Of a stretch of 28,307 bases of DNA, positions 947-28,307 are shown in pieces; position 1 is the first letter of the stretch; every line of letters begins with the position of its first letter. The stretch comes from Anaerolineaceae bacterium UBA4799 (GTDB lineage: Bacteria; Chloroflexota; Anaerolineae; Anaerolineales; Anaerolineaceae): NCBI GenBank assembly GCA_002402725.1, contig DHGL01000009.1, positions 41,578 to 69,884 on the forward strand, in the 5' to 3' direction. The notes below the pieces were generated by a model. The model ran no database searches, had not been told where the DNA came from, and was given only the letters and a program-made list of their open reading frames with translations. The position numbers and the translations under genes are program-made.

Positions 947-974
947 CTGCTGCGACTCGTTCGCAGTAGTTTTT
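947..974 (+). terminator. Rho-independent terminator after the epimerase gene
   Basis: A 9-bp stem (947-955 with 961-969, one G-U pair) encloses a 5-base loop, and five T's follow at 970-974. It lies 60 bases after the epimerase stop. The T-tract overlaps the stop codon of the convergent gene at 973. On the minus strand no T-run follows the stem, so it should work for plus-strand transcripts only. Confidence 0.75.
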
Positions 975-2246: not shown

Positions 2247-2253
2247 ACGCTCC

Positions 2254-3222: not shown

Positions 3223-3226
3223 TCGC

Positions 3227-4594: not shown

Positions 4595-4627
4595 GAGTAC
4601 TCCGCATATTCAGGTTCAAGTAACATG

Positions 4628-4656
4628 ATTATAAATTGAATCACCTGGTTGGTCTA
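4628..4656 (-). promoter_or_regulatory. Possible internal promoter before eutB
   Basis: On the minus strand a TATAAT box (4628-4633) is preceded by a 17-base spacer and TAGACC (4651-4656, four of six matches to the -35 consensus). The -35 overlaps the end of eutA. The predicted transcript would have a leader of about 25 bases with the eutB ribosome site. It could give extra lyase over reactivase; this is seen by eye only. Confidence 0.38.
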
Positions 4657-6129: not shown

Positions 6130-6234
6130 CTTATTATATATTCAGAAAACTCTAATGGTTGGGAAGATAATTACGCAATGCAACACCTCACCTTACCGGG
6201 CGGTTGAGTTACATGAATCAGGATGCTTGACCAT

Positions 6235-6271
6235 TCAAGAATTGGCTGGATGATGCTTCTTTAATTCTTGA
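6235..6271. repeat. Inverted repeat between the ABC ATPase gene and eutA
   Basis: TCAAGAATT (6235-6243) and AATTCTTGA (6263-6271) are perfect 9-base inverted arms around a 19-base spacer. It lies just after the stop of the transport ATPase and about 105 bases before the eutA start. It lacks a T-tract, so it is not a standard terminator. It could be a two-site operator, a weak processing hairpin, or chance. The rest of 6130-6287 shows a TATAAT only 5-10 bases from the eutA ATG, without a matching -35. Confidence 0.45.
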
Positions 6272-6287
6272 GATTTGCGTAGCGTCT

Positions 6288-7337: not shown

Positions 7338-7379
7338 AAGTCACCGTTTATTTTTGAGATTTATTGTTTTTGATTAAAA

Positions 7380-8177
7380 TCACCTGGCACCTGCCAGAGA
7401 ACTACCGGCTGTTTTTCCGCGGGAAAATACCTGTATCAGTCCCATGAAAGCCCATGTGAGCATAAAACTGATGATGGCCAATGATGAAGATTCATAGGTC
7501 TTGTTTTGCCCGATCATCGACATGTACGGTCCATACGCCTTGATTCCAACCAGGAAACTGGCAATGGTGTATTCACCAATGACGATGGCGAGCGTGAGGA
7601 ACGAGCAGCTTAATAAAGCAACCTTCAGGTTAGGAAAAATTATCCTGAAAAGGATGGTCGCCCATCCAGCGCCAAGGCTCTGTGCGGCTTCGGTGAGGGA
7701 TTTAACATCAATCGCCGCCAGGCCCACATCAATTGACCGGTAAACAAAGGGTAGCGCTAACACAACATAACCGGCGGTAAGCAGCACATAAGTCCCCATA
7801 AAAGTATTCGTCAGAAAGAAGGGAGCACCGCTGAAGGTACGGATGGCGCCAAAAACCCACACTATTGCCGGGATGACATAAGGAAGCATCGAAATAAATT
7901 CCACGAGACCTCTCAACTGCGGTAATCGCAGCCGTATCCAGTAAGCCGTGGGAACGACAAGAATAATGCTCAGAATGATGGTAAAGAGGGCAATCACCAG
8001 AGAAAACCACATTGTTCCCCAAAAATTGGGGTCTGCAAAAACTCGCGTGTATGCGAGAAACGAAAGTACGCCTTTTTTTGCACGAAGGGAGAACTCAAAA
8101 GTCGAGATTAATGGGAGGAGAAAATAAAGTGTTCCGATAATGACCCACAACCATGACCAAAATGATCCGCGCTTCAT
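7380..8177 (-). CDS. ABC importer permease 2 (PotC-like)
   Basis: This is an inner-membrane permease of about 265 residues with six hydrophobic segments. The cytoplasmic EAA loop is seen as SLTEAAQSLGAGWATILFRI near residues 160-185, ending in the usual I-x-x-P (IIFPNL). Its subfamily is that of PotC and the iron/2-aminoethylphosphonate permeases. The chosen ATG at 8177 overlaps the TGA of the preceding permease in an ATGA junction and has AAGGTGG eight bases upstream. A GTG at 8189 with AGGAG before it is an alternative that would add four residues. Coupling with permease 1 implies equal production of the two halves of the channel. Confidence 0.92.
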   Translation of the reverse strand: MKRGSFWSWLWVIIGTLYFLLPLISTFEFSLRAKKGVLSFLAYTRVFADPNFWGTMWFSLVIALFTIILSIILVVPTAYWIRLRLPQLRGLVEFISMLPYVIPAIVWVFGAIRTFSGAPFFLTNTFMGTYVLLTAGYVVLALPFVYRSIDVGLAAIDVKSLTEAAQSLGAGWATILFRIIFPNLKVALLSCSFLTLAIVIGEYTIASFLVGIKAYGPYMSMIGQNKTYESSSLAIISFMLTWAFMGLIQVFSRGKTAGSSLAGAR

Positions 8178-9085
8178 CTTGGCAGCCACCTTTCACTCCT
8201 GCGGCGCAGGTAATAGTAAATCGCCATCATTACCGCCATCACAATCACCATCCCAACCGCGAGGGCATAACCCAGACCTGGATTGTAAAGGATATCGCCC
8301 TTGATTTGAGAGCCTACCACGATGGTGATCAGGTTGATAAAACCTCCGGTGAGAGAGTAAGCGGTGGCGTAAGCGCCAAAGGAATTTCCAAACAAGAGAA
8401 TGATCGCGCCTAAAATGGATGGGGTCAGGATGGGTAACGCGACCTTGCGCCAATAAAGGCTCCTGGAAGCGCCCAGGTTTTCAGCAGCCTCACTCCATTC
8501 TTTCTTCAACCCATCCAGCGCAGGGGTGATAATGAGCACCATCAGGGGGAACTGGAAATATAAATAGGTCAGCGATAGACCCCAAAAACTGTAAAGGTTG
8601 AACCCATGGGCATAAAGGTCCAGCTTCAGAACATCTTTAAGGATAACGGTGATGAGACCCGTACGTCCAAGTGTGGCGATGAACGCAAAAGCCAAGGGAA
8701 CGCCAGCGAAGTTCGAAGCGACGCCCGAAAATGTCATGAGCATGTTGCGGACTGCTTTTGGTAACTTGCCTACAGTGACAGAATAGGCCATCAGAAAACC
8801 CAATAATCCGCCCGCGAGCGCGGTGGTTAAACTGATCTTGATCGTGACCCAATAAGCGCTTAAAATCGATGGCTCTAAGAGTCCGGCGAGGTTGGTCAGG
8901 GTGAATTTCCCTTCGTTTGTGCGGAAGGCTCCAGCCAGGATATTCACGGAAGGGAGCAGGATAAATAGAATCGCAAAAGCAAAGAAAGGGATCACTCCGA
9001 TCCATTTGTGCCAGATATTGTTAGAGGGGCGCGCTTTTCGCGCGTCCCTCTTCTGAGCAGTAAAGACCGTGTTATTCCTTGACAT
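8174..9085 (-). CDS. ABC importer permease 1 (PotB-like)
   Basis: This is an inner-membrane permease of about 303 residues. A basic cytoplasmic N-terminus (KRDARKARPSNN) is followed by a first membrane helix and five or six more hydrophobic segments. The EAA loop is visible as KEWSEAAENLGASRSLYWRK, followed by VALPILTPS. It pairs with the PotC-like permease downstream. The start is uncertain: ATG 9085, or GTG 9091 two codons earlier; both overlap the end of the binding-protein gene (14 or 20 bases), so it is translated from within that reading frame. It is one of four contiguous transporter genes. Confidence 0.92.
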   Translation of the reverse strand: MSRNNTVFTAQKRDARKARPSNNIWHKWIGVIPFFAFAILFILLPSVNILAGAFRTNEGKFTLTNLAGLLEPSILSAYWVTIKISLTTALAGGLLGFLMAYSVTVGKLPKAVRNMLMTFSGVASNFAGVPLAFAFIATLGRTGLITVILKDVLKLDLYAHGFNLYSFWGLSLTYLYFQFPLMVLIITPALDGLKKEWSEAAENLGASRSLYWRKVALPILTPSILGAIILLFGNSFGAYATAYSLTGGFINLITIVVGSQIKGDILYNPGLGYALAVGMVIVMAVMMAIYYYLRRRSERWLPR

Positions 9086-10259
9086 CTGCACCGACGACAG
9101 TCATCCAGTTATCTGCGATAACCTGTTTGGCTGTGTTGATCTGGTCAATGCTCGGGAAAGCGATCGGACCATCGAAGGTAGGTAGTTTTGCCGCCAAATC
9201 AGCAGGAATTACTCCGCGAGACTCCATTTCGCTATAGCGAATCGGATGGCAGTATCCTTTCAGCCAGATGTTTTGGCCTTCATCGCTGTAAAGGAATTCC
9301 ATCCAAAGTTTGGCAGCATTGGGGTGCGGGGCATATGCTGAAATTGCCTGGATATAGATACCCGCGATCGTGCCGCTTGCCGGATAGACTACTTCAATAT
9401 TCGGGTTGCCAGCCAGAGCATCTTTATCTGACAAGGCGCTGTAGTCCCAGCGCATGATGACCGGGGTTTCACCCTTGGCAACAGTCGCCTGTTTGGCAAT
9501 CACGGGAACAAAATTGCCTGCATCGTTAATCTGCTTGAAGAAATCCAATCCGGGCTGTACATTATCCAAGTCACCGCCATTGTACAAAGCCGCGGCATAG
9601 ACGCTCATCTGAGCTTGTGCTGAAGCACGGGGATCACCTGCAAGGGCGAATTGACCTTTCAGTTCCGGTTTTAACAGGTCAGCCCAATCTTGCGGCACAT
9701 CGGTGACGATGTCAGAATTGCCTTCGAAGGCCATAACACCGTAATAATCACCATACCAATAGCCATCCGGATCTTTGGAATCAGCCGGAATGGAATCCCA
9801 GGTGGAGACTTTGTAAGGCTGCACAAGCGCTTCTTCGATCAATTGTGGGCCAAAACCGTATCCAACATCGATGACGTCAGGCGCTTGCGGGCCTTTATTA
9901 TCTTTATTGGCTTTAATGGCTTCAATTTCATCAGCGGAACCGGCGTCGGGGTTCAATTCATTTACAGCGATGCCATACTTGGTTTTGAAAGCATCAATGG
10001 CTTCGCCGTAATTACACCAGTCACGAGGAAGAGCTATCACGGTTAGATTGCCTTCTTCTTGCGCAGCTGCGATCAACGCTGCCATGGGATCTTCGGCGAC
10101 AGCGGGCTCTTCTGCAGCAGGTTCTTCAGCGGCGGGTTCTTCAGCCGCGGGTTCTTCAGCAACAGGTTCTTCAACGGTAGGTTCTGTTGGCGCACAGGCA
10201 GACAATGCCATCGCGAAGATCATCAGCAGGCTTATTAATAACAACGCGGTTCTTTTCAT
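9072..10259 (-). CDS. ABC importer substrate-binding lipoprotein (PotD/Fe(III)-family)
   Basis: This 395-residue protein begins with a lipoprotein signal (basic MKRT, hydrophobic core, LSAC lipobox with Cys22). An acidic linker of Glu-Glu-Pro-Ala repeats (about residues 28-56) follows, then a two-lobed periplasmic-binding fold. Family-like segments include PDVIDVGYGFGPQLIEEALV, DPDGYWYGDYYGVMAFE and the C-terminal HPNAAKLWMEFLYSDEGQNI. It belongs to the cluster holding polyamine, iron(III) and 2-aminoethylphosphonate binders, and the ligand cannot be read from sequence alone. Context (directly upstream of eutABC, no eutH) suggests ethanolamine or a related amino-alcohol; this is an inference. 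The ribosome site AGGAGAGAACC before the ATG is strong, and the promoter lies at 10379-10406. Confidence 0.92.
   Translation of the reverse strand: MKRTALLLISLLMIFAMALSACAPTEPTVEEPVAEEPAAEEPAAEEPAAEEPAVAEDPMAALIAAAQEEGNLTVIALPRDWCNYGEAIDAFKTKYGIAVNELNPDAGSADEIEAIKANKDNKGPQAPDVIDVGYGFGPQLIEEALVQPYKVSTWDSIPADSKDPDGYWYGDYYGVMAFEGNSDIVTDVPQDWADLLKPELKGQFALAGDPRASAQAQMSVYAAALYNGGDLDNVQPGLDFFKQINDAGNFVPVIAKQATVAKGETPVIMRWDYSALSDKDALAGNPNIEVVYPASGTIAGIYIQAISAYAPHPNAAKLWMEFLYSDEGQNIWLKGYCHPIRYSEMESRGVIPADLAAKLPTFDGPIAFPSIDQINTAKQVIADNWMTVVGADVKE
10105..10179. repeat. 15-bp tandem repeat encoding the lipoprotein linker
   Basis: Five adjacent 15-base units (starts 10105, 10120, 10135, 10150, 10165) share the pattern GGTTCTTCAGCNRCR on the plus strand, with some drift. 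Read on the minus strand they encode Glu-Glu-Pro-Ala-Ala type units of the flexible linker after the lipid-bearing Cys. Such repeats can change copy number by slippage without shifting frame. Confidence 0.85.
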
Positions 10260-12221: not shown

Positions 12222-15200
12222 TCAGGGCGCTATGGTGATGAGCCGGGTTTCTGACCAATTGCTCCAGTTTCCGGCAAGATCCCTGGCGCGCACATGCCAG
12301 TAATAGGCACCGCGTTTCTGACCCGGCAAGATGTGGAACGCGACCGATAATTCTCCTGTCTGATATTCTATATTGGTAAATCCCACGTCAGTAGCGAATT
12401 CGAATTGATAATATTTAGCGCTGCTGTCACTTCTCCAGTAATAAAACGGTATACCGTGAACATTTATGCCATCGAGGGGGATGATTAACGAGGGAACCGC
12501 GGGAGGTGTTGAATCAACAACGATCGACCTCGAGGACGACCACTTGCCGTAAACACCCAGGTCATTAACCGCCCGCACACGCCAGTAGTACCTGCCATCC
12601 ACTGTGACAGCGTTGGTTTCATACGAGTTTGCACCCGCCACATCTTCTGTAGAGTATGTTGTGAAATAAGGTGACCTGCCGACTTGAACCTGGTAACCGC
12701 TGACCGGTCTAAAGGGGTCAACAACCGGTTGCCAGCTTAAAAGCGGGGTGTTGTCATTGGTCAGAGCACCTGAAACCGGCGCGTCGAGAGCGGGGGCAAC
12801 TGGAATCGGGCTGACGGTGAAGGTCTGAACAGGCATCCAATCTCCGTAAGTATCGCTGACCATTACCCGTATGCGCCAGTAATACTTGCCCGCGGTAAAT
12901 GGGGTCGGGGAGGTATAAGCTGTGGACGTGGGTAGTTGTACGTCCATTACTCCCAGATTCGGATCCAGAAATGCGGCGTCAGCAGAAACCTGCAACTGAT
13001 ACTGCCAGGCACCCGCGACACCAGCCCATACAAACCTGGGCGTAAAACCGGTCAGGTTGGAACCATTAAGCGGGCTCTGCATGATGGAGACGGTAAAGCG
13101 GCGAGCACCAGACCAATCTGAAATATTTCCCGCGACGTCCAACGCCGCGGCACGCCAGTAATAATTCGCACCGTAAGGCAGTTTGTTGATTGAAGGTACT
13201 GACCAGGCAGGTTTCGCGGTGGTCATCGCGCAATCCGCATTGACAAGTATGTTTTCAAAAGTCTCTGTATCAGCCACCTGGAAACAGTAAAGATTGGCGC
13301 TCGCCACCGATTTTACTGAAAATGCAGGCGTCGTATCATAAGTAACCGCATTCATACCAGGAGATACCGGTACGGGTGCGCCGGGTGCGGTTGTATCAAT
13401 GACCAGGTAACTCGTTGATGACCACCTCCCCGGTACCCCCATTCTATTGACCGCTCTCACATGCCAGTAATGCTTGCCAGGCTTCAGTGCTGCATCTTCC
13501 AGGCTGAACTGACCGCCCAGAGTTGAACCCTGATATTCAATGGTATTGAAATACTGGCTTGTGCTGATCTGTACTTCATAGTGGTCTTCAGCTAATCCAT
13601 TATTTGTCGGATCATCTTCAGGAGGTGTCACAGGGAGTTCTTCAATATCATCAAACAACCACAAAATCGCTTCGTCCATCCAATTTCTCCAGGTGGAGGT
13701 CTGGTGAATACCACCGGGATATATATCGTATTTTATTTCGATATCCGGATTGGTTGTTGTTAATGTCTGATAAACTGCGTCAACCCCACTTTTCCATATT
13801 TTGGGGTATGTCCACCCCGGATAGGTCAGTCTTCTACCATTCCACTCATTGGTGCCGGTAAAAATATAGAATCTCGAAAGTTCCGTTTGAGGGTGATTGC
13901 GGATATATTCTAGAAGCCGGTTATTGGAGAGCCACTTACCGCCATCTTCAGCGTACCATACTGCCGGTGATAATGAAATCACCTTGGAAAACACCTCAGG
14001 TTCTCGCAAACCTCCGTAAAGTGTGATCAACCCACCCATACTGGCGCCGCCTATGGCCGTATACTCCCGATCCCTTAATGTGCGGTAACGGTTATCGATG
14101 ATCGGTTTCAGAGTGTCAACAAAGAAATCTATGTAGGCGTCCCCCTCCCCTCCCTCGCGGGCATCGGCATGCCAGTTGTGCCAGATGGTGTCTGTATCCG
14201 TGTTGATCCAGGGGCTGTACTCATCCCAGCGGTTAGGATTGGTGAACACGCCAACAGCTATCACTCCTTCGATTTGTCCTTCATAGAAAAGGGCCTCCAG
14301 TGTTTCATCTGTGTAGAATCCCTTTTCAAACTGGAGACTGCCATCACTCAGGTAGAGCACCGGATAAGACTTGCCACTGGTAGCGTAATCAGGAGGCAGG
14401 TAAACCTGAATGGTTCGATACTTGACTCTCAATTGTGGCGAATAGACCTGAAAGGATTCCACCCAGCGCAGGTGCGGGGAAAGATCGTTTGTGTAATGAC
14501 CGGCCACTGGAGAGGTGATTACTGGCGCGGAAGGGATCACGGGTGAGACAATAAATGAAGCAACGGGGGTCCAGCTTTCAGAAAACCCCGTGCCCGAATT
14601 CACCCGTAACCGCCAGTAATAATTACCTGCCAATAGACGATTGGTCGGGATGAATGATGTCACCGGGGGATTAATGTAATAATTCTCGGTTGTTTCCTCT
14701 TCAAATAATTCGGTCCGTGCAAGTTGCACCTGGTATTGAACTACTCCGCTTATTGCTCCCCAACTAAGTGTCGGTTTTGTATTAGTGGTAGTGGTACCGG
14801 TGATCGGCGTCTTCAAATTACTCACAATGAAAGATCGCTCTTCACCCCAGGATTCATTTCCAGCCTTATCCACTGCGCCGGCGCGCCAGTATACTAAACC
14901 AAACGGTAAAGTTTCAGCAGCGTTGGGCAAATAACTCGGAGATAAAGATATCGATGTAACCGTTTTGTCAAGCAGTAAGGCTCCTGAGAACTCCGGCGTT
15001 GCTGCCACCTGGAAGCGATAATTAGCAGCATCACTCACCCGCTTTATGATCAATCTGGGAGTTGCGGTAGTGGTTATCTCGTTTTCCGCGGGAGAAGAAT
15101 AGACAGGCAAGGCGGGGGGAGTTGTATCCAACCGGAAGTCGGCAGGTGCTGACCAACTTCCAGGCGTTCCAACATCATTCACAGCGCGAACCCGCCAGAA

Positions 15201-18200
15201 GTACCGGCCATCTGCTAAAGAGGGAGCCTCATAATGTTGTTGACCATCTAATGTAAGTCCGCTATAGGTGAGCGTCGTAAAACGGTTGGTCGTGCTGACC
15301 TGAATTTCATATTGGTCCTCTCTGGATCCATCTGCGGGTGGCAGACTATCCGGTAATTCAGCACTATCCGCAAATAACCAGGTGATGGCATCATCTACCC
15401 ACCAGCGCCACGAAGTGGGAGAGTGGATTCCACCGGAGTTGGTGACAAGGTAGACCTCACTGTTCGGATGGCTCTCTATCGCTGCCTTTACAGCGTTTAC
15501 ACCGCTCACCCAAACTTTGGGGTATGTCATCCCGGGAAGTCTTAAGGTTCTCCCGTTCCACTCATTTGTTCCGATATATATAAAGAATTTGGATTCCTGG
15601 GATAAAGGATGACTGGAGATATAATTGATCAAACGGTTGTTCGAGAGCCAGGCACCCCCAGATTCTCCAAACCAAACGGCAGGTGAGAGGACCATGACTT
15701 TCGAGAAAACGTCCGGCTCCCTATATGCGGCGTAAAGTGTGATGAACCCGCCCAAACTCCCTGCCCCCAAGGCTGTGTGTTCCCGGTCGGTCATTGTGCG
15801 GTAGCGATTGTCAATGATCGGTTTCAGCGTATCCACGAGGAAGTCTACGTAAGCATCACCCTCCCCTCCCTCGCTGCTGGCGGCATCACTCACATACCAC
15901 ACATCTTTCATGTGAGTATTCACCCAAGGGCTGAATTCATCCCATCTATTTGCGCTATTAAAGATCGCGACTGCTATCAAGCCATTAATCTGCCCGTTAC
16001 GATAGAGCTCTTCCAATGTGTCATCAATATAATAACCATTGATGAACTTAGTGTTACCGTCATTAAGGTAAAGCACCGGGTAGGATTTGCCACTGGTCGC
16101 GTAATCCGGCGGCAGGTATACCTGAATCGTCCGGTTTTTAATTCTCAATTGGGGAGCCGTCACATTAAACGTATCAACCCAGCGAAATCTTGGTGATGGA
16201 TCGTTGGTGTAATTCCCAGAACCCGGTTCCATGATGTAAGGAGTTGTTGGCGTAACCGGAGAGACGATAAAAGAATAGGTTGGGGTACAGTTCTCGCTAA
16301 AGCCCGCGCCGTAATCCACTCTCAGACGCCAATAGTAACTCCCGGGTGGCAAGGTCGTGGTTGAGGTGTAACTCGTCATTGGTGCTAAAACCTCGCTAAT
16401 CACAACCGACTCCACGGCAAAGTCAGCCCTTGAAGCCACAAGTAGTTCGTATTGCAGCGCCCCGGTAGCTTCCCCCCAACTGAAGGCAGGGGTCGGAACT
16501 GTAATGGTTGTACCATGATTGGGAGTTTTTAAGATGTTTACCACCAAGGCGCGGGATTCACCCCAGGCTTCATTTCCAGCAGGATCCACAGTGGCTGCGC
16601 GCCAGTAAACCGTACCGAAAGGCAGCGCTTCAGCCGTGGTCGGTGCGTAGCTCGCGTACGTTAAACCTGGTTTTACCAGTTTGTCCAGGAGTAGAGATTC
16701 CGTGAAGGTGGGTGTTGTCGCCACCTGGAAGCGGTAAGACACTGCGCCGCTGACCCTCTTCACGCTCAGCTTCGGGAGGGTCGTCGTTGTGGTAGCCCCG
16801 CTTGCCGGAGAATAATAAGGCGGTGGTTTCACTGGTGTTGAATCAACCCTGAACGACGCGACCGCTGACCAGACACCAGGCGCATCGAGGGCATTGATGG
16901 CGCGAACGCGCCAGTAATATAAACCATCCATCAGTTCAGGAAGCACATAAGGTGGGAGATTTTCGGTTGTCTCAGATTGCACGATGCTGCTGAAAACGGT
17001 ATCTTTGCTTACCTGTATCTCGTACCCGGTGATGGGGATTGTTGTCGCTTCTACAATACTCCAATCCAGTGATGGGGTTCTGTCGTTAATGATTGCGTCA
17101 ATGGACGGTGCCAGCAAGACCGGTGCAGCAGACACGGGGCTGATCGTGAAATGCTGCACAGGCATCCAATCACCAGTGTCCACCTTCAGGCGCAGGTAAT
17201 AGGAACCAAAAGCCATATCGTCCGCAGGAATAAATGTCGTGGAAGTTAGCGTTTCATCGATCAGGATCGGTGATATAAAGTCCTGCGAGGTGGATACCTG
17301 CAGGTTGTACTCGCTTGCCCCCGGGAGGCCGATCCAGGTGAACTCTGGTGTGAGAGACGGGGTAAAGGAGGAATCTGCCGGTGACTGCATCAGGGTGAGG
17401 TTGAGAAGCCTCGAGATAGCAGGAATGGAGTAGTTGCCTGCCGCATCGACTGCCATGGCACGCCAGTAATATGTTTGGTAACCCAAGGCTGCCTCAACTG
17501 GAACGGTCCAGTTTGTACTCGTTGTGCTTTGAGCACAGGTCGGGTTTACCAGGGGATTATCGAACGCCGGGTTATCAGCCATCTGGAAGCAATACCTGCC
17601 GGCATCGCTGACAGGTTTCACAGCAAGGGTCGGAGATGTAGTGGTAATGTAAGCTCCATCTGATGGCGAAGTAAGTTGAGGTGTGACCGGTAGGACTGTA
17701 TCAATCGTGAATGAACGGTAACCCGACCAGCTTCCATTGACTCCTACAGAATCTATACCCCTGACCCGCCAATAGTAAAGCCCATCTGCCAGTGCGCTGG
17801 TCGTGAAAGAAGTGCCTTTGTCTGGCACAACCACATCCTGTACTGTGCTGGTAAATTTATAGTACGTGCTGATCTGAACCTGGTACTTCTCTGCGTTAGC
17901 AGTCTCGTTCCATGATAGCAAAACTTCTGAATGATTTTTCAGGGTTCGATTAGGAGTAAGCATAACCGGTGCTAGTGGAGGATTTAATGAATAGAACTTA
18001 TAAGTTGGAGTCCAGACGTCCCAGCTGGCTCCAATGCGCGCGCGGTAACGCCAGTAATATGTTTTACCGTTCGCCAATGCCCGCCCAAAGTAGTAGCGCG
18101 AAGAATAAACCGGCCCATTAATGATCGGCTTACTGAAGTTGTTGTAGAGTGAAAGCTGGATTTGGTAGGCGTTGGCACCGGGAGAATCAGCCCAATCAAA

Positions 18201-20333
18201 GGTTACTTTTGATGTCGCCAGTTTCTGCCCGTCGGCTGGCAGTATCTCCTCCACTGAAAAGGTCAACTCGGAGGAAACTCCACCCCCGGGAGCCGCATTG
18301 ACCACCGTTAAGGGAACCCGCAAAGGCTCACCAAGATACGATGATGGAACCTCCACCCGTAGCTGCGTTGGGCTGAGATATGTAGTGTTTAGCCCGGTTG
18401 TGTCCCAATTTACTTGCGAACAAGCAACAAAATTCGCACCGGTTACTTCAACGGTAATGGCGGGATCTGTTGATAACCGCGTCAACGATTGAGCGGGTGT
18501 GAGGGCATAAAGCAGCGGCCGTGGATTCTCTATGGTAAAACTCACAGCGTTGGAGGACCCACTTTCCAGTTCAGGGTTAATCACGGTGATGGTGTACTCA
18601 CCCGCAACAACTGTCAGGTCAGGTGTCACCACAGCGGTAAGCGAGGTGTCATCGATGAAAGTAGTCACAAGCGAAGTCTCACCCCACTTGACAGTGGAAC
18701 CCGCAACAAAATTCAACCCGTGAACCATGAGCGTTGTGAACGAGGGTTCATTCACAAACGATGAATAAGGGTTCAAGGTAGTGATTTCAGGTGGAAGTCC
18801 CTCACCTGTCAAAACCGGTTCACCCTCAGGAGCCTCTGAAGCTTCAGTGCCATCAAGAGGTTTGGACTGACCGATAAAATCCACCTCTGTGTGATCGGCA
18901 TCGACTACAGTGAGTGGGAAACTCAGGGGTGTAAATTCATAAACTTCGCTTGTTGGAATAATGGAAATTTCCCCCGGCGTCAGGCCGGTAATGGTGTAAG
19001 CGCCTGTTTCATCTGTGGTTGCCGTGTGACCCAGCCCGTCCGCTACTATTATCCCCGGTAGCGGAGCACCTTCCAGATCAAGAATTGTGCCGCTAATGAG
19101 GTAAGTGAGCGTGTCTTCAGTATCATCTAGTGGAGGATTTTCAATCACACCAGCCTTCGCATAAAATGCTACCTGTGTTGGAGAGACGGGGATTACCAGG
19201 TACCCCCCAGATATCGCCATCCCGGCTGTCTTTCCGGGTGTGGCAGCAACAGCCTCCCAGACCATAGAACCCGTACTGAGGCCAATTGCTTTGATTGTCC
19301 CATCCGGAAAATTGGAATAGGCATAACCGTTTGCCATAACCAGGGACGGGCAGGCGGTCAGTTCACTTGTTCCGCCGTTCAACGACCATACGACCGTGCC
19401 ATCAAGCGGGCTCAGTTTTTCTACGAAACCTGAGTGAGTTGTGATGATAAGATCACCGTTACCATAAGCTGCCTGACAGACCTCGCCAGTAAGGACGGGG
19501 GAAGACCAGGAAAGCGTGCCGGTAAGGGAATCAAGCCCACGAATGCTCCCATCTACCTGCGAAACCAACAAGGTCGTCCCCGCCAGCAGTAGTGGCATTC
19601 TTGAACCTGTAGATTGATTTGAGGTCCAAATAACCGCTCCATCTTCCCGGTTTATCGCCCACGCGGATAACCCAGTTTCAACGAAAACAGCATCCTCTGA
19701 CAAGACCGGTACTGATCCTGGACCATCGAGAGGCATCGTCCAGACAACCGAATTGGTTGAAAGGTCAATACTCAGCAGATGCTCATCCGAGGAACAGAAC
19801 ATCTGGTTACGATCCGCAGGAGAACAGGTGTAGGCGCTTGCTGCATGTTCTGCGGTCGGTACCATTCCAATCGTTGTGCCGTCTGAAATGTCCAGCCGTA
19901 CCAGGGTTAATGTATCATCCACCGGGTTTATACCGCCAACAACGATCTCCGACCCGGTCACCCCGCTGACGATTAGTTGCTCAAGCCCGTTGTAACACCA
20001 GGTCTGCGTCAGGTCAGCAAGTAAGTATGCACAAAACCCGTCATCTTCAAGAAGGAAAAGATAACCATTGGCGAGAATTGGTGAAGCGCCTGATAAAATT
20101 TGTGAGTTTGTGGTGATGAAGGTGCTTAATTCTAAAGGTGCTGCGAGCAGAGTTTCGCCCTCAGCGAAAAACGTTCCTGCCGGATCATGCCGGGCACTCG
20201 GCCAATCCGATTCAACAGCGATTTGCGCGGTGACTGTTTCCTGGGAAACATGCATGAGCAAGATGCTTGCGATAATAAAGAGAGAGAAAAGCCTGTTTAA
20301 TTTCCCTCCGATCTTTTGAATTGATCGGATCAT
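12222..20333 (-). CDS. Giant secreted protein: PQQ-like propeller, IPT/TIG, 15 Fn3-like domains with two inserted esterases
   Basis: This is a 2703-residue exported protein. A signal peptide (residues 1 to about 36) is followed by a PQQ-like beta-propeller (about 39-395; repeats such as LDSLTGTLSWSS and LSPLDGTVVWS). Next come a carboxypeptidase-regulatory-like domain (408-490) and two IPT/TIG domains (514-604, 605-694). Fifteen Fn3-like domains with YYWRVRA-type strands then form five triads, beginning near residues 695, 979, 1266, 1839 and 2416. In triads 3 and 4 an alpha/beta-hydrolase esterase (Fes/esterase-D type) of about 285 residues sits inside one Fn3-like domain. The nucleophiles are Ser1526 (GAGSLGG) and Ser2098 (GGASMGG), the catalytic His residues are probably 1637 and 2210 (GGIHxxxxWR), and a conserved GTNEWNGR may supply the acid. 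There is no C-terminal anchor. The ester substrate is unknown. AGGTAGGG precedes the ATG. Confidence 0.9.
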   Translation of the reverse strand: MIRSIQKIGGKLNRLFSLFIIASILLMHVSQETVTAQIAVESDWPSARHDPAGTFFAEGETLLAAPLELSTFITTNSQILSGASPILANGYLFLLEDDGFCAYLLADLTQTWCYNGLEQLIVSGVTGSEIVVGGINPVDDTLTLVRLDISDGTTIGMVPTAEHAASAYTCSPADRNQMFCSSDEHLLSIDLSTNSVVWTMPLDGPGSVPVLSEDAVFVETGLSAWAINREDGAVIWTSNQSTGSRMPLLLAGTTLLVSQVDGSIRGLDSLTGTLSWSSPVLTGEVCQAAYGNGDLIITTHSGFVEKLSPLDGTVVWSLNGGTSELTACPSLVMANGYAYSNFPDGTIKAIGLSTGSMVWEAVAATPGKTAGMAISGGYLVIPVSPTQVAFYAKAGVIENPPLDDTEDTLTYLISGTILDLEGAPLPGIIVADGLGHTATTDETGAYTITGLTPGEISIIPTSEVYEFTPLSFPLTVVDADHTEVDFIGQSKPLDGTEASEAPEGEPVLTGEGLPPEITTLNPYSSFVNEPSFTTLMVHGLNFVAGSTVKWGETSLVTTFIDDTSLTAVVTPDLTVVAGEYTITVINPELESGSSNAVSFTIENPRPLLYALTPAQSLTRLSTDPAITVEVTGANFVACSQVNWDTTGLNTTYLSPTQLRVEVPSSYLGEPLRVPLTVVNAAPGGGVSSELTFSVEEILPADGQKLATSKVTFDWADSPGANAYQIQLSLYNNFSKPIINGPVYSSRYYFGRALANGKTYYWRYRARIGASWDVWTPTYKFYSLNPPLAPVMLTPNRTLKNHSEVLLSWNETANAEKYQVQISTYYKFTSTVQDVVVPDKGTSFTTSALADGLYYWRVRGIDSVGVNGSWSGYRSFTIDTVLPVTPQLTSPSDGAYITTTSPTLAVKPVSDAGRYCFQMADNPAFDNPLVNPTCAQSTTSTNWTVPVEAALGYQTYYWRAMAVDAAGNYSIPAISRLLNLTLMQSPADSSFTPSLTPEFTWIGLPGASEYNLQVSTSQDFISPILIDETLTSTTFIPADDMAFGSYYLRLKVDTGDWMPVQHFTISPVSAAPVLLAPSIDAIINDRTPSLDWSIVEATTIPITGYEIQVSKDTVFSSIVQSETTENLPPYVLPELMDGLYYWRVRAINALDAPGVWSAVASFRVDSTPVKPPPYYSPASGATTTTTLPKLSVKRVSGAVSYRFQVATTPTFTESLLLDKLVKPGLTYASYAPTTAEALPFGTVYWRAATVDPAGNEAWGESRALVVNILKTPNHGTTITVPTPAFSWGEATGALQYELLVASRADFAVESVVISEVLAPMTSYTSTTTLPPGSYYWRLRVDYGAGFSENCTPTYSFIVSPVTPTTPYIMEPGSGNYTNDPSPRFRWVDTFNVTAPQLRIKNRTIQVYLPPDYATSGKSYPVLYLNDGNTKFINGYYIDDTLEELYRNGQINGLIAVAIFNSANRWDEFSPWVNTHMKDVWYVSDAASSEGGEGDAYVDFLVDTLKPIIDNRYRTMTDREHTALGAGSLGGFITLYAAYREPDVFSKVMVLSPAVWFGESGGAWLSNNRLINYISSHPLSQESKFFIYIGTNEWNGRTLRLPGMTYPKVWVSGVNAVKAAIESHPNSEVYLVTNSGGIHSPTSWRWWVDDAITWLFADSAELPDSLPPADGSREDQYEIQVSTTNRFTTLTYSGLTLDGQQHYEAPSLADGRYFWRVRAVNDVGTPGSWSAPADFRLDTTPPALPVYSSPAENEITTTATPRLIIKRVSDAANYRFQVAATPEFSGALLLDKTVTSISLSPSYLPNAAETLPFGLVYWRAGAVDKAGNESWGEERSFIVSNLKTPITGTTTTNTKPTLSWGAISGVVQYQVQLARTELFEEETTENYYINPPVTSFIPTNRLLAGNYYWRLRVNSGTGFSESWTPVASFIVSPVIPSAPVITSPVAGHYTNDLSPHLRWVESFQVYSPQLRVKYRTIQVYLPPDYATSGKSYPVLYLSDGSLQFEKGFYTDETLEALFYEGQIEGVIAVGVFTNPNRWDEYSPWINTDTDTIWHNWHADAREGGEGDAYIDFFVDTLKPIIDNRYRTLRDREYTAIGGASMGGLITLYGGLREPEVFSKVISLSPAVWYAEDGGKWLSNNRLLEYIRNHPQTELSRFYIFTGTNEWNGRRLTYPGWTYPKIWKSGVDAVYQTLTTTNPDIEIKYDIYPGGIHQTSTWRNWMDEAILWLFDDIEELPVTPPEDDPTNNGLAEDHYEVQISTSQYFNTIEYQGSTLGGQFSLEDAALKPGKHYWHVRAVNRMGVPGRWSSTSYLVIDTTAPGAPVPVSPGMNAVTYDTTPAFSVKSVASANLYCFQVADTETFENILVNADCAMTTAKPAWSVPSINKLPYGANYYWRAAALDVAGNISDWSGARRFTVSIMQSPLNGSNLTGFTPRFVWAGVAGAWQYQLQVSADAAFLDPNLGVMDVQLPTSTAYTSPTPFTAGKYYWRIRVMVSDTYGDWMPVQTFTVSPIPVAPALDAPVSGALTNDNTPLLSWQPVVDPFRPVSGYQVQVGRSPYFTTYSTEDVAGANSYETNAVTVDGRYYWRVRAVNDLGVYGKWSSSRSIVVDSTPPAVPSLIIPLDGINVHGIPFYYWRSDSSAKYYQFEFATDVGFTNIEYQTGELSVAFHILPGQKRGAYYWHVRARDLAGNWSNWSETRLITIAP
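13088..16537 (-). repeat. In-frame tandem duplication: two 1.7-kb Fn3-esterase units
   Basis: Two adjacent coding units, about 16537-14820 and 14820-13088, have the same domain order (C-type Fn3, A-type Fn3 with inserted esterase, B-type Fn3). Matching points such as TTGCCACTGG at 16087 and 14371 are 1716 bases (572 codons) apart, as are the two active-site Ser codons (15758 and 14042). The copies are clearly diverged at the protein level, so this is an old duplication and not an assembly artefact. Confidence 0.88.
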
Positions 20334-22908: not shown

Positions 22909-23931
22909 TCAGGGTTTTACTGTCCACCTCCAGGTGTAGAAGATCACTTCCCCGCCTCCGAGGAACAGGACATCGTCCACATCGTGCTCCGCGAGGAACT
23001 CTGACATAGAGAAGTGATAATCCGGAAGCCTTCGGATATCTATGCAGTAAGTATGGTGATAATGAGAGGCGAGCAACGGCTCAATCGCATTGATAAAGGA
23101 GTCTCCGATGATCAGCAGATTGCGCTGCGCGCCATTTGCAGAGATATATTCAAGATAACCGATATCGTCTACCCCGTAATAATCGACATAATGGTCTGTG
23201 TAGTAATCCTGCCCGTACTCACCCGCAAAGTATTCCTCCATGCGGCCATGGTCCAGTTCATTTCCAGAGATGTCATAGACTTTGTAAGCGGGCAGATCTA
23301 ACACAGCCACCTTGAAAGGTTCAGGGTCAACTTCGTAATCAAGTTCGCGCGCCCAGGTTCCGACAAATTCGATATCTTTGAAAGTATGAATCTTTTTGGT
23401 TTTGATGCGGGGAGAAATCTCCGGGTAATTTTCCGCCAGCATTTTATAAATCTTTTCGTAACCCGTCATGATACCTTTAATATTCCAGTGATGATCCGTT
23501 CGGTAATAATACTTCATATGATCCTGAAAGCTGGTCAGCGGCAGGGTTTCAAGAATTAATTCTGGTGGTTTATTGGCAATAAAATATTCTAATGCTCTTC
23601 CAGCATCTGCTTCCGGGTAATCTCCGCTTACGGGGTTATGTGCTGAATACTGGATCAACTCAAGATAAAAAGCGTAGTAGTTCAGGTCCGGGAAGTTATT
23701 AATGATCGTCTCGTATTGCCCGATCTTTTTTTCCAGGTCTTCCTGCTCCGTCGCCCTGAATCGACGAGGTGATGGAAACATAACCCCGGTTTCGTTAGTC
23801 ATATAGACGTCCGTGGAACCGAGCTCACCAATTTTCGTGGAAGCTTCTTGAAAGCGGTCGCCACTACAACCACTAAGAAATATAAAAATAATCAGTATGC
23901 CAAAGATTGATCTTGGTGGTCTGGGTGCCAT
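22909..23931 (-). CDS. DHHW/AlgX-like SGNH-fold lipoprotein
   Basis: This 340-residue protein has a lipoprotein signal (hydrophobic ILIIFIFLSGC, Cys22). It contains YYYRTDHHWN (Asp146-His147-His148-Trp149), the hallmark of the DHHW/AlgX-AlgJ group of SGNH-like proteins. The block 1 motif LLIIGDSFI has Ser278 as the expected nucleophile. Relatives take part in O-acetylation of exported polysaccharides, normally with a membrane-bound MBOAT acetyl donor protein. No MBOAT gene is in the window. The start has AGAGGTGAGC before the ATG. It follows the LCP gene by 143 bases in the same direction. O-acetylation of the exopolysaccharide handled by the neighbouring genes is plausible but inferred. Confidence 0.82.
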   Translation of the reverse strand: MAPRPPRSIFGILIIFIFLSGCSGDRFQEASTKIGELGSTDVYMTNETGVMFPSPRRFRATEQEDLEKKIGQYETIINNFPDLNYYAFYLELIQYSAHNPVSGDYPEADAGRALEYFIANKPPELILETLPLTSFQDHMKYYYRTDHHWNIKGIMTGYEKIYKMLAENYPEISPRIKTKKIHTFKDIEFVGTWARELDYEVDPEPFKVAVLDLPAYKVYDISGNELDHGRMEEYFAGEYGQDYYTDHYVDYYGVDDIGYLEYISANGAQRNLLIIGDSFINAIEPLLASHYHHTYCIDIRRLPDYHFSMSEFLAEHDVDDVLFLGGGEVIFYTWRWTVKP

Positions 23932-24074
23932 TGCTCACCTCTTTGCATCACCAAATACCCCTGTGGATGATTCGAGATTTCATTCCAACTCACAACATGT
24001 AATAAAACGTCAGTTGTTTGAGTATATCCTCTGCTGACCTCCCCGCTATAAAGCCAGCAAGGGTACGTGTGCTG

Positions 24075-25127
24075 CTACTCAATGCCATTATTAATCATAT
24101 CCTGGATGAAGGCTGCGGCTTCTGGCTTTGGCAGCTTGATATGCCGGCCATAATTGGTGACCATGGGAGTGTACAGGTCATAGGGAATGTCCACAAATAC
24201 CAATGAATCGCGGTTGATTTCACGGATAAAACAGGTGAACGTGTACACATCCTGCAAACGCAAGTCAGTGATGACTGATTTGTCCTTGATGAATTTCACG
24301 CCCAGACCAGGGAGTTTTATGATGTACTCAGGTTTTGAAAGTTTCTCGTACAGCCCTTTTAAGATTGCCGATTGCCGTTGGATACGATACGCGTCCAGAT
24401 CTGCTGTCCGCTGCCTCACAAAAAGCAGCGCAGATTTGCCATCAAAATGATGATGCCCCGCGCTCGCGTAGGCGCCAATCGGTTCTTCTAGGTAGATATC
24501 CACCCCGCCAATCTGGTCTACAAGGTCCGCGAAATCATCGAAATGCGCCACAACGTAACGGTCGAAAGCAACGCCATAGTTTTGATACATCGTTTCAGAA
24601 AACTTCACCACGCCTTGACCGCGTCCATTAAAATACTCGCCATATCCATAAGCCGCGTTGATGCGAAACTGGGTGATGTTGTGTTCTTCCAACCCTGGTA
24701 TGGGAACCCAAAAATCCCGTGGGATCGACAACACCATAATCTGGCGTTTCAGCCAATCCACCCGCACAACCCTGATCATATCCGCCTGCTCCACCTCGTC
24801 AATCCCCAGTGCCAGGATGACCATTGGTTCCGCCTGCCCGCAGACGGTAGAAGCACCTGCTGGTTCAGGTTGAGCAGTCGCCTGCACCGGCTTAGTACTT
24901 ACCGCTACTGGCGTGGCAATAAACGCAGCGCTGGTGGGTAAGGAAGTAAACGTTGCCAGCTGCTCAAAAGCAAATTGCGGGAGCTGCCTTCCCAGAAGGG
25001 GGCTCGTCCACAGCATATAACCACAACCCATCAGGATCAGTAAAATAAACAAAAGCCATGCCAGGCGTTTTTTTAGGGGCGCTTTCTTAAGCCCCACTTT
25101 TAATGATCGCCCACCCTGCCCGCTCAT
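24075..25127 (-). CDS. LytR-CpsA-Psr (LCP) family glycopolymer transferase
   Basis: This 350-residue protein has a basic cytoplasmic N-terminus, one membrane helix (about residues 22-40), a Thr/Pro/Ala linker, and an extracellular LCP domain. Key residues of the family are present: Asp116 (QADMIRVV), Arg137 in LSIPRD, the GGVDIYL strand, and Arg238, Arg240, Asp245 and Arg251 in FVRQRTADLDAYRIQRQ. LCP enzymes transfer undecaprenyl-linked teichoic acid, capsule or other glycopolymers to peptidoglycan, or act on exported polysaccharides. The ATG overlaps the TGA of the phosphatase gene (ATGA), so the two are translationally coupled. Together with the Wzz-kinase and phosphatase this is the usual capsule-locus combination. 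Confidence 0.93.
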   Translation of the reverse strand: MSGQGGRSLKVGLKKAPLKKRLAWLLFILLILMGCGYMLWTSPLLGRQLPQFAFEQLATFTSLPTSAAFIATPVAVSTKPVQATAQPEPAGASTVCGQAEPMVILALGIDEVEQADMIRVVRVDWLKRQIMVLSIPRDFWVPIPGLEEHNITQFRINAAYGYGEYFNGRGQGVVKFSETMYQNYGVAFDRYVVAHFDDFADLVDQIGGVDIYLEEPIGAYASAGHHHFDGKSALLFVRQRTADLDAYRIQRQSAILKGLYEKLSKPEYIIKLPGLGVKFIKDKSVITDLRLQDVYTFTCFIREINRDSLVFVDIPYDLYTPMVTNYGRHIKLPKPEAAAFIQDMINNGIE

Positions 25128-25591
25128 CCAGCAGCTCTGCTGACAATACGGCCAAATCCGGCGTCAACCAGTGAGAAAATTTCCTCCGCGATTTGCTGCG
25201 GATCTTCACCGCTCGCCATTACAGGGTCTGGAATGTCATAAGTCTGACCAATAGTGATATCTGAGAATAAGGCAATTTTGTTCTTCGCCTGGGGAAACTC
25301 AAGGGTAATCGCCTCTCGCTGACCATCCGCCATTACAATGATCAAATCAGCCTCGTTAACGAGTGTGGTGGTTATCTCTCTTGATCGAACAGACTCGATG
25401 TTGAGATGTTTATTCGCCGCCCATTGAAGCGCTTCTTTAATTGGAGCCTCGCCTTCCTTTACCCAAATTCCCGCGCTGCCTACCACCCATCCATCCGCTT
25501 TCAGTTGGTTTTCAAGCAAGGATTTGAAGCACTCTGCCGCCAGCACGGAACGGAACCTGTTGGCGCTACATACAAAAAGGATATTCGGCAT
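25124..25591 (-). CDS. Low-molecular-weight protein-tyrosine phosphatase
   Basis: This 155-residue protein has the P-loop FVCSANRFRS, a CX5R motif with Cys8 as nucleophile and Arg14. The general-acid loop is YDIPDPV (Asp122), both as in LMW-PTPs such as Wzb and Etp. It probably dephosphorylates the Tyr-rich tail of the BY-kinase encoded two genes upstream, the usual cycle controlling polysaccharide chain polymerisation and export; this is inferred from context. Arsenate reductases share the fold, but the position in a kinase-LCP cluster argues for the phosphatase. The ribosome site GAAGGGTG precedes the ATG, 23 bases after the LysM gene. Confidence 0.92.
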   Translation of the reverse strand: MPNILFVCSANRFRSVLAAECFKSLLENQLKADGWVVGSAGIWVKEGEAPIKEALQWAANKHLNIESVRSREITTTLVNEADLIIVMADGQREAITLEFPQAKNKIALFSDITIGQTYDIPDPVMASGEDPQQIAEEIFSLVDAGFGRIVSRAAG

Positions 25592-25614
25592 GGCTCACCC
25601 TTCACCCATCTTGA

Positions 25615-26517
25615 TTATTCCGTTTTCGGCACAATCAACATTTCGCCCATTTTTAACGAATAACCCTCAGGCAAATCATTATACTTTTTCAGCATTTCTG
25701 CATCCAGTTGCATCCGCTCCGCATAAATCTCGATGGTCATCCCTTCCGCGCGTATCTCTGCTACAACGAACTTCGGCAATCCTGTCACATCATCTGTATT
25801 GATCGGTATCACCAGGACGGTATTTTCCCATAACGAATCTGGTAATGCGTAATTTATCGCCTTGATAGCATCAGCGGTGGTATTAAAGTTTTCTGCCAGC
25901 AAAATAAACCCTTCACCAGCGACGACCTTATGAATCACAAGTTGAGGGGAAGTGCCGAATGGCGTCTCCAACGCGCGTGGTGTCTGCTTGACCGGAATAA
26001 TCCATGTAGCGGTCATGGTTGGCGTCAACGTTGCGGTCAATTCAGGAGTGGCGGTCAGTTCTGTCAAAGGAACCACCTCAGATTGAAGTGTGGGGGTGTG
26101 TGTCGCCACCTTAAACCCTGCCAGCGGAGGCGTGAACCCACGGATAGGGAGCAGACCTGAGAGGAAGAGAGCCGCGGGTCCAATTATGACTACCGCTGCC
26201 AAAGCAACAACAGGTACCCACTTGAGCTTCGAAATCCTCGAATTCCTCTCGCCCCGAAGGCCCTTTGGCAGCGGGATCGGGTTTTCATTCTGAAATACCG
26301 GACAATCCGCATAATGCTCAGTCAGACATTTATTGCGCTGTTGTATCAGGCTCACCGGGGCAATGGGTTTGGCGCGAAAGCAGAAATTGTACCTGGCCGG
26401 GTAAGCCAGCGCGGTAGTAGGGTCATCCTCAAAACCGATGAAAGGACAGAAGAGTGATTCCTTTCTCTTCCTGTCCTTTTTCCCTTCTCCCGCTGAAGAT
26501 TCCGCTTTACCCGTCAT
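25615..26517 (-). CDS. Membrane protein with four-Cys cytosolic head and LysM-like extracellular repeats
   Basis: This 300-residue protein has a Lys/Arg-rich start and a 50-residue module with four cysteines (24, 46, 64, 72). The module includes CPFIGFEDDPTTALAYPARY and ends CPVF, a form I recognise from Anaerolineae proteins. One membrane helix (about 101-123) follows, then a Thr/Pro-rich linker and two LysM-like units at the C-terminus (about 197-245, GEGFILLAENFNTTADAI with LVIPI; and 250-299, ending GEMLIVPKTE). Basic residues beside the helix put the Cys module inside and LysM outside. LysM binds peptidoglycan or related glycans; the Cys module may bind zinc or an Fe-S cluster, which is not shown. 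It lies 14 bases after the BY-kinase gene, so it is in that operon. The exact function is unknown. Confidence 0.8.
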   Translation of the reverse strand: MTGKAESSAGEGKKDRKRKESLFCPFIGFEDDPTTALAYPARYNFCFRAKPIAPVSLIQQRNKCLTEHYADCPVFQNENPIPLPKGLRGERNSRISKLKWVPVVALAAVVIIGPAALFLSGLLPIRGFTPPLAGFKVATHTPTLQSEVVPLTELTATPELTATLTPTMTATWIIPVKQTPRALETPFGTSPQLVIHKVVAGEGFILLAENFNTTADAIKAINYALPDSLWENTVLVIPINTDDVTGLPKFVVAEIRAEGMTIEIYAERMQLDAEMLKKYNDLPEGYSLKMGEMLIVPKTE

Positions 26518-26531
26518 TATCCTTTTTTCCC

Positions 26532-28244
26532 CTAACCTGTATTTACCTCTTCAACCGCCGGTTCCATATGAGAGGCGTCCTCGCTGGTCCTGCCATACTG
26601 CTTGCTATAATAGTAATCACGGTTGTAATAATAACTCGACCGTTTTACTTTGATGTTATTCAGAACCACGCCCAGCAACCTGGTGTCCAGGCGCTGGAGT
26701 TGCTCGATTGCCTGGCGAATGGCGCCGCGCTTGGTCTTCTTGGGATCAACCACCAGCAGCACGCCATTAACGCTTTTTGCCAGTATCAACGCGTCTGTCA
26801 CCGCCAGCAGCGGGGGAGAATCGAGAAGCACCATATCAAAGTGTTTTTCCAACAAACTTAAAACATCCTGCATTTTGGAAGAACTCAGTAATTCCGATGG
26901 ATTTGGCGGCAGGCTGCCCGAAGTGATAATATTCAGCCCGTTTACTCTGGTTTTCTTCACCACCCCGGTCATTTTTTCAGGTGTGCGGATGAAGTAATCA
27001 GAAAGACCGATGCGGTTGGACAATTTGAACAACTTGTGTAGCGTCGGTCGCCGCATATCCGCATCCATCACCACAACGTTTTTTTCGCTCTGGGCGATAA
27101 CCGTAGCCAGGTTGGCAACGATGGAGGACTTGCCGTCGGACGGTGACGCGCTCGTTACCAGCACGGTTTTCAAAGGAGTGTCAATCCCACTGAATTGGAG
27201 GTTGGTGCGTAATGAACGGAAGGCTTCTGATACCGGCATGCGCGGTTTGGCGACAGTGATCAATTGGTCCTGGTTGTAGGGATAATGAGTGATGACCCCC
27301 ACCACCGGTACCCCCCATCTGCGGGAAAACTCTTCTGGGTCGCGGACTTCATCCTGCAAAAACGCGATTAAGAACACAATGCCTCCGGCAGCTATCAACC
27401 CGACGACCGCGGCCAAACCGGCACTCTTCATCGGTTGCGGCTGTATGGGTTCAGCATTGGCCACCGCTTTGTCTATCTGGCTGATGGTTGTGGCGGATTG
27501 AACCTCAGTTAATTTAATTTGCTGTAAGTTATAGAACAGCGAAGAGCGGGTGGATTGGTATTGAGATTGCGCCAACTCCAATTGAGCACGGGCAACATAG
27601 TCATTCGGATCCCGCACAACCTCGATCGGTTCAAGCCCTTCTGCTACCATCTGTGCTGCTCGTTTTTCGGCTTCTGCCAGTTCGGCCTCTTTAATCTGCA
27701 GGACAGCCAATCTTTCATTGATATCCGTTAAACTCTGGTCTATACGGGCAATCTCTTCCTCCAATCCCTGTTTCAGGTCGGTATAGCGGGAGGATTGATC
27801 CGTCATTACCTTTTCAGAGAAGGTGGTAAGGACCATGTTGGCTGTATCCGCTGCTTTTTGCGGGTCACTATCTGTAACGACAATGGTAAATATGGGGGAA
27901 TTTTCAACAGGTGTCACGGTAATCTTGCCGGTCACTTCATACCCAAGCCGTTCAGATACAGACTGCAGCAACTCGGGCGTGATCATCGTTTGCGCGTATG
28001 TCTCAGCCAGACGTTGAGCGCCATACGAGGCTGAATATGCGTCGTAATAATCCGAACCGGTGACTACATTTACCACAGCTCTGGTATTGGCTTCAAAAAC
28101 CCGTGGTTTCTGGTTTGTCAGGTAATAAGCCACAGCACCGGAGGCGATGGCCACCAGCAAGAGCAGCCACGCCCAGCGCCACAAGGTCTGAGCGTAATCG
28201 AGAATACTCTCAAGGCTGCTGCGTTCTTCAAGTTCATTTTCCAT
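26532..28244 (-). CDS. Wzz-type chain-length regulator fused to BY-kinase (polysaccharide tyrosine autokinase)
   Basis: This protein of about 570 residues fuses CpsC/Wzz and CpsD-type parts. Membrane helices lie at about 24-42 and 275-296, with a Wzz-like extracellular region and a coiled coil (about 152-244) between them. The kinase has Walker A SASPSDGKSS (365-374), Walker A' VVVMDAD (390-396), Walker B VLLDSPP (472-478), and a C-terminal cluster of seven Tyr (538-550, YYYNRDYYYSKQY) for autophosphorylation. It controls polysaccharide chain length and export at the inner membrane. The ATG at 28244 is chosen over an upstream TTG (28298) because it has AAAGGGTGG in front and matches the usual Wzz N-terminus. 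It is the first gene visible of the operon with LysM, phosphatase and LCP genes. Confidence 0.94.
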   Translation of the reverse strand: MENELEERSSLESILDYAQTLWRWAWLLLLVAIASGAVAYYLTNQKPRVFEANTRAVVNVVTGSDYYDAYSASYGAQRLAETYAQTMITPELLQSVSERLGYEVTGKITVTPVENSPIFTIVVTDSDPQKAADTANMVLTTFSEKVMTDQSSRYTDLKQGLEEEIARIDQSLTDINERLAVLQIKEAELAEAEKRAAQMVAEGLEPIEVVRDPNDYVARAQLELAQSQYQSTRSSLFYNLQQIKLTEVQSATTISQIDKAVANAEPIQPQPMKSAGLAAVVGLIAAGGIVFLIAFLQDEVRDPEEFSRRWGVPVVGVITHYPYNQDQLITVAKPRMPVSEAFRSLRTNLQFSGIDTPLKTVLVTSASPSDGKSSIVANLATVIAQSEKNVVVMDADMRRPTLHKLFKLSNRIGLSDYFIRTPEKMTGVVKKTRVNGLNIITSGSLPPNPSELLSSSKMQDVLSLLEKHFDMVLLDSPPLLAVTDALILAKSVNGVLLVVDPKKTKRGAIRQAIEQLQRLDTRLLGVVLNNIKVKRSSYYYNRDYYYSKQYGRTSEDASHMEPAVEEVNTG

Positions 28245-28245
28245 G

Positions 28246-28260
28246 AGGGTGTTCCACCCT
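28246..28260 (-). promoter_or_regulatory. Small hairpin covering the ribosome site of the BY-kinase gene
   Basis: In the transcript AGGGTG-GAA-CACCCT is a perfect 6-bp stem with a 3-base loop immediately before the ATG at 28244. The stem contains the AGGGTGG that would pair with 16S rRNA, so folding could lower translation. Upstream, TATACT at 28280-28285 is a possible -10 box, but its -35 would fall at the window edge. Confidence 0.4.
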
Positions 28261-28307
28261 TTCTGCGAATTGTAAATTAAGTATAATTCACTTTCCAACT
28301 GGCTGCA

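Follow-up and report, generated by a model that had tools for sequence, protein, structure and literature searches.

Esterase domains that appear nested within split Fn3/Ig-like repeats of a probably secreted protein from Anaerolineaceae bacterium UBA4799

The stretch of DNA analysed here, called the window, comprises 28,307 nucleotides of contig DHGL01000009.1 from Anaerolineaceae bacterium UBA4799, and all coordinates given below are those of the whole stretch. It contains a gene (P0001) encoding a protein of 2703 amino acids with an array of Fn3/Ig-like domains, two of which are interrupted by an esterase. The N-terminus of this host protein is hydrophobic and was read by eye as a signal peptide, so that the protein is probably secreted. 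A PQQ-type propeller and two TIG domains are also present (NCBIfam in addition calls a choice-of-anchor Z repeat), together with a CarboxypepD_reg match that narrowly misses its cut-off (32.2 against 32.3). No RTX family was seen in the general domain scan of the protein, which included no dedicated test for RTX or type I secretion.

The array is best matched by PF25788 (Ig_Rha78A_N). Two profiles were used to delimit its members: a set of 216 full-length Fn3-like domains, contributed by 24 of the 27 proteins that lack the esterase, makes up a2 on its own and a1 in combination with three uninserted domains of the window. These three had also seeded the collection of the 216. With a1, 15 Fn3/Ig-like domains are recognised in P0001; 13 of them are whole, while the 8th and the 11th are split, each being interrupted by an esterase of family PF00756 (196.2 bits against a cut-off of 22, two stretches in the protein). 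A sequence-only reading of this DNA had placed the esterases in the third and fourth A-type domains; this agrees with our own parsing, in which there are five such domains, and all the peptides that it quoted are present in the open reading frame (ORF). The starts of the two esterases, copies a and b, lie 572 residues apart, which corresponds to one triad of domains A, B and C. The features concerned are the following.

12222..20333, minus strand: host gene P0001, ORF of 2703 amino acids, from domain scans
15123-16259, minus strand: copy a, whole unit (both half-domains and esterase)
16179..16259, minus strand: copy a, N-terminal half-domain (strands A and B), residues 1359-1385, profile positions 2-30
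15366..16178, minus strand: copy a, inserted PF00756 esterase, residues 1386-1656, from domain scan and profile
15321..15365, minus strand: copy a, C-side linker of 15 residues, residues 1657-1671
15123..15320, minus strand: copy a, C-terminal half-domain (strands C to G), residues 1672-1737, profile positions 29-94
13392-14543, minus strand: copy b, whole unit (both half-domains and esterase)
14463..14543, minus strand: copy b, N-terminal half-domain, residues 1931-1957, from profile and pairwise match
13647..14462, minus strand: copy b, inserted PF00756 esterase, residues 1958-2229, from domain scan and profile
13590..13646, minus strand: copy b, C-side linker of 19 residues, residues 2230-2248
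13392..13589, minus strand: copy b, C-terminal half-domain, residues 2249-2314, from profile and pairwise match
17697..17972, minus strand: uninserted A-type domain A1, residues 788-879, profile a1
16839..17129, minus strand: uninserted A-type domain A2, residues 1069-1165, profile a1
12510..12800, minus strand: uninserted A-type domain A5, residues 2512-2608, profile a1

Complementary halves of one domain flank the esterase in both copies, as found with profiles, with pairwise comparisons and across the family. Profile a2 aligns in copy a at positions 2-30 (residues 1364-1392) and again, behind the esterase, at positions 29-94 (residues 1672-1737); in copy b the corresponding matches are positions 2-26 (residues 1936-1960) and 29-94 (residues 2249-2314). 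The 28 residues preceding the esterase scored 10.1-18.8 bits in nine of nine inserted units from seven proteins, while equivalent segments of other esterase units reached at most 2.3 bits (102 scored of 104) and shuffled sequences at most 8.7 bits (1925 scored of 2000). By these sequence comparisons the match of the upstream half-domain is greater than expected by chance. A scan of 155 proteins (including P0002, a copy of P0001) gave 435 Fn3 matches above 15 bits: 21 are C-terminal fragments, and 12 of these sit behind an esterase, all starting at position 29-31 with 42-53 bits, the remaining nine starting at 29-61 with 16-22 bits. Moreover, when compared pairwise with the 13 whole domains, the C-terminal half of copy a matched the three A-type domains best (151, 141 and 136, the next being 73), as did that of copy b (138, 100 and 99, followed by B5 with 95), and both N-terminal halves matched A5 best (52 for a and 70 for b). 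The nesting of the esterase inside one domain, at the B-C loop as the sequence-only reading had claimed, is therefore well supported at the level of profile and pairwise alignment. The span given for it by that reading, 13640-16200, covers both esterases and cuts through the flanking half-domains.

The same arrangement recurs in a small family of proteins. The relatives considered are the best 120 of 727 matches, an earlier search having scored the 7988 candidates that shared most words with the query, together with P0156-P0161 and P0164, which were added by a further search. P0003 is 91% identical over the searched region and has two insertions, and P0004-P0007 and P0009 are 47-49% identical with one insertion each. 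Among 194 proteins (P0002 dropped) there are 167 with an esterase, in 201 units; 15 of the 167 also have an Fn3 match above 15 bits and these hold 17 units, both half-domains being present in 15 of them. The other two units are incomplete: that of P0047 has no N side, as its ORF begins inside the esterase, and that of P0164 stops inside the esterase. An esterase borne on a linker between two intact Fn3 domains was encountered in none of the 15 judgeable units (two of 17 being incomplete), and this arrangement was rejected on the alignments.

In each of the 16 units with an N side, the upstream profile match extends as far as the start of the esterase core or slightly into it, and there is therefore no linker on this side. 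On the C side the profile boundaries leave a linker of 13-21 residues in 16 units. As far as the linker is concerned, the proposal that both ends of the enzyme are fixed on adjacent strands rather than strung on a linker accordingly holds for the N side and has to be modified for the C side.

Trees of the best-scoring 80 and 95 rows, midpoint-rooted for drawing and with P0047 and others flagged as long branches, placed 12 inserted units on one side of a branch (99/95) and 16 inserted units on one side of a branch (Shimodaira-Hasegawa-like approximate likelihood ratio test 96), respectively. Since a single branch sets the inserted esterases apart in either tree, the simplest history would be a single insertion followed by duplication, and several independent insertions do not seem to be needed. 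The insertion itself is real and recurrent. In Anaerolineaceae UBA6107 (locus L001) two neighbouring genes, tandem paralogues at L001:7145-12043 and L001:12169-15849, have one insertion each. A PQQ propeller is listed for close relatives of the first paralogue (P0007) and not for those of the second (P0156), and P0009 and P0158, for which the longest contig has the same length (27578), may represent the same tandem pair.

Both esterases of the window retain unbroken serine, glutamate and histidine motifs, located by motif position, for which the catalytic roles are those expected from the family.

15756..15758, minus strand: copy a, putative nucleophile Ser1526 (GAGSLGG)
15561..15563, minus strand: copy a, putative acid Glu1591 (GTNE)
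15423..15425, minus strand: copy a, putative catalytic His1637 (GGIH)
14040..14042, minus strand: copy b, putative nucleophile Ser2098 (GGASMGG)
13845..13847, minus strand: copy b, putative acid Glu2163 (GTNE)
13704..13706, minus strand: copy b, putative catalytic His2210 (GGIH)

The esterase unit of P0156 that starts at residue 569 has a cysteine (GGGCMGG) at the nucleophile position, where 15 other inserted units have serine; it was found in one sequence cluster only. Among the matches listed, the nearest outside relatives of the guest are free-standing esterases such as P0044, P0045 and P0053, three that are 48-51% identical and can be aligned with it from the same first residues. They differ in consisting, as read by eye, of a hydrophobic N-terminus, the esterase and a C-terminal hydrophobic segment and, unlike the nested units, have no Fn3 match above 15 bits. 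Esterases related to this group occur in Anaerolineaceae genomes. P0036 and others, as well as frames of about 770 amino acids in G003 and G004, have two tandem PF00756 esterases and no Fn3 domain.

An AlphaFold2 model of residues 1266-1838, the check proposed by the sequence-only reading, has a mean predicted local distance difference test score (pLDDT) of 82.9 and a predicted template modelling score of 0.61, with the esterase well modelled. The alignment behind it has 19 rows, four spanning the split domain and 15 being free-standing esterases; copy b, with four rows, gave a model of mean pLDDT 57.3, too poor to be used. Downstream of the esterase the model of copy a has strands read as C, C', F and G. 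Two separate complete domains flanking the hydrolase, the outcome named by that reading as refuting the nesting, were not seen in this model, in which A and B are poorly modelled, so that the pairing of strands across the esterase is neither shown nor refuted. The structural matches of copy a are Fes, siderophore hydrolases and esterases of family CE1 and concern the fold only; no Fn3 or Ig chain occurs among the 50 matches listed, which are filled by the esterase.

Several observations weigh against a single domain closed across the esterase. In the model the blocks 101-110 and 111-120 (residues 1366-1385), where A and B should lie, have pLDDT of 46 and 49 and almost no strand, on a shallow alignment. 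The upstream matches taken alone are weak in whole-protein scans (1.6-11.2 bits), and the ranking of N-terminal half a is mixed, with B1 second (45), A2 sixth (35) and A1 twelfth of 13 (21). PF25788 passes on the joined domain of copy a with 29.2 bits against a cut-off of 27.4, but the C-terminal half alone gives 28.3, so that joining adds 0.9 bit with the N-terminal half unaligned; in an uninserted control, unlike in copy a, the alignment begins at residue 13. The score of Big_13 also improves on joining, from 16.4 to 25.7 bits, yet stays just below its cut-off of 27, and the joined a2 score roughly equals those of the two halves added together (71.6 in both copies, uninserted domains giving 82.8-90.3). 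As to the name of the domain, PF00041 (fn3) does not pass on the joined domain of copy a, with 14.4 bits against 25; the label Fn3 is loose, since it is PF25788 and not fn3 itself that passes.

Our preferred reading, held with moderate confidence, is that P0001 is a secreted protein of Ig/Fn3 repeats and that the B-C loop of one A-type repeat received an esterase, an alpha/beta-hydrolase, a single time, the insertion then being retained and duplicated. Strands A and B on one side and C to G on the other would close into one sandwich across the esterase, and the enzyme would therefore be held at two points, with no linker on one side and a short linker on the other. It may thus project sideways from the fibre with nothing blocking the active site. 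Ester groups (acetyl or aromatic acyl) on a surface or extracellular polysaccharide would possibly be its substrate.

The low confidence of A and B, together with the presence of only C, C', F and G as strands in the model, could also mean that the domain is split in sequence while A and B pack on the esterase as an N-terminal extension, the downstream half being a degenerate half-sandwich and the esterase physically on a linker. In the same direction, the alignments of many PDB esterases begin at model residue 107-115 and take in part of strand B. We regard this as unlikely, since the strand-B proline and tryptophan (the motif [ST]P and Trp) are retained in 16 of 16 inserted units and absent from 15 of 15 free-standing rows, and a C-G fragment of 66 residues would, if deprived of A and B, form a sandwich that is not closed. 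To about the same small degree the guest might be a siderophore (trilactone) hydrolase rather than a polysaccharide esterase. Acyltransferases of the antigen-85 kind also belong to PF00756, and a guest of this kind, esterifying surface glycans rather than cleaving them, would suit a possible surface-polysaccharide context; it is slightly less probable still, no antigen-85 structure being present among the 50 structural matches listed, which does not exclude it. A chimera or assembly artefact is very improbable, as the same junction exists in other proteins from several sources and in a named genome, although the relative P0164 looks chimeric. In P0164 there is a break inside the nested esterase at about residues 695-724, followed by an unrelated-looking tail, and this may be a chimera or a rearranged gene because PF13602 is listed for it by the source.

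As a rule, an enzyme in a repeat protein is connected end to end with its neighbours through linkers. The CE1 esterases with CBM48, and Fes, share with the guest the esterase fold and an accessory beta domain, but there the two follow one another, the accessory domain coming first rather than enclosing the esterase; in Fes it is the N-terminal domain that lies ahead of the esterase. The integrin beta I domain nested in the hybrid domain is a further case of a domain within a domain, and the guest domain of the pilus-tip adhesin RrgA is not known to be a hydrolase. In RrgA, D3 is inserted into D2, a nesting in a surface protein similar to that of P0001, with a different host domain and context (PMC5333627). 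In the RTX adhesins MpIBP and FrhA, the Ig-like domain that is split by the guest likewise belongs to a long repeat protein of the surface; they differ in that the guests named there are ligand-binding domains and not enzymes, and in belonging to other bacteria (PMC10865825). The split Ig-like domains of adhesins are the closest known principle among the cases considered here. In a narrow search of open-licence papers we found no published example in which the guest of an Fn3/Ig-like repeat is an esterase or another alpha/beta-hydrolase. The claim that no such family has been described stands within this search, the principle of a guest in a split Ig domain being already in print. Active alpha/beta-hydrolases as guests of split Ig/Fn3-like repeats on a secreted fibre probably constitute an undescribed family. 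It would go back to a single insertion, with later duplications of a three-domain unit, and its enzymes would take the place that binding domains have in the split domains of adhesins.

Such a family would provide a natural catalytic domain held at two points in a repeat. As both its free-standing relatives and the sister repeats that lack an insertion can be set beside it, the effect of nesting on orientation, stability and substrate access could be evaluated. In addition, the nested unit can serve as a template for enzyme-bearing Fn3-like scaffolds, and the finding suggests that uncultured Anaerolineaceae carry out ester chemistry at the surface or in the matrix.

The arrangement seems to be rare. 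A scan of genome contigs, which rests on two short peptide patterns and can miss relatives, gave 46 stretches, of which 12 were confirmed, at 11 loci; only L001 matches the whole query. Four of 147 genomes of the family of L001, all of them identified before, match at E-values up to 1e-30, and only one (G001) does so over the whole nested unit. None of the 198 stretches of viral contigs that matched the pattern was confirmed. Eight plasmid records were obtained, all with less than 60% identity and none covering 80% of the query, among the matches listed (5 of 8).

Upstream of the host gene there is a block of genes that is found in the same order in L001.

22909..28307, minus strand: ATPase, LysM-like protein, low-molecular-weight (LMW) phosphatase with LytR-CpsA-Psr, and DHHW/AlgX-like protein

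In comparison with the L001 counterparts, identity is 72% for the ATPase (of ParA/AAA_31 type), 53% for the LysM-like protein, 57% for the LMW phosphatase, 59% for LytR-CpsA-Psr and 54% for the protein with DHHW and AlgX matches. These genes hint at a polysaccharide-type neighbourhood, partly through sub-threshold matches, and a polysaccharide ester is therefore proposed as the substrate. This proposal is weakened by the Wzz and GNVR matches of the ATPase and the DHHW and AlgX matches in the window, all of which are below cut-off, and by the LysM match, which is above cut-off in L001 and 0.2 bit below it in the window. Moreover, L001 lacks a counterpart of the LVIVD gene that adjoins the host gene.

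The LMW phosphatase and LytR-CpsA-Psr are encoded in the window (24075-25591) by two ORFs with an overlap of four bases, and at L001:4109-5704 by one fused ORF of 531 amino acids. The genes on the other side of the host gene are those of an AMP-ligase, an ABC transporter and an ethanolamine-utilisation cluster; none of these ORFs has a match in the stretch of L001 compared. The ethanolamine cluster (1587-10259, minus strand) consists of a bacterial microcompartment (BMC) shell protein, EutC, EutB and EutA, and is followed by ABC transporter genes with an SBP_bac_6 binding protein. In P0023 the Fn3-like matches seem to be broken at about residues 210-480 by repeats of GDQ/TGDQ type, perhaps expanded loops. 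For a small ORF of the window (973-1557, minus strand), the match to pyruvate kinase is confined to the C-terminal domain (PK_C).

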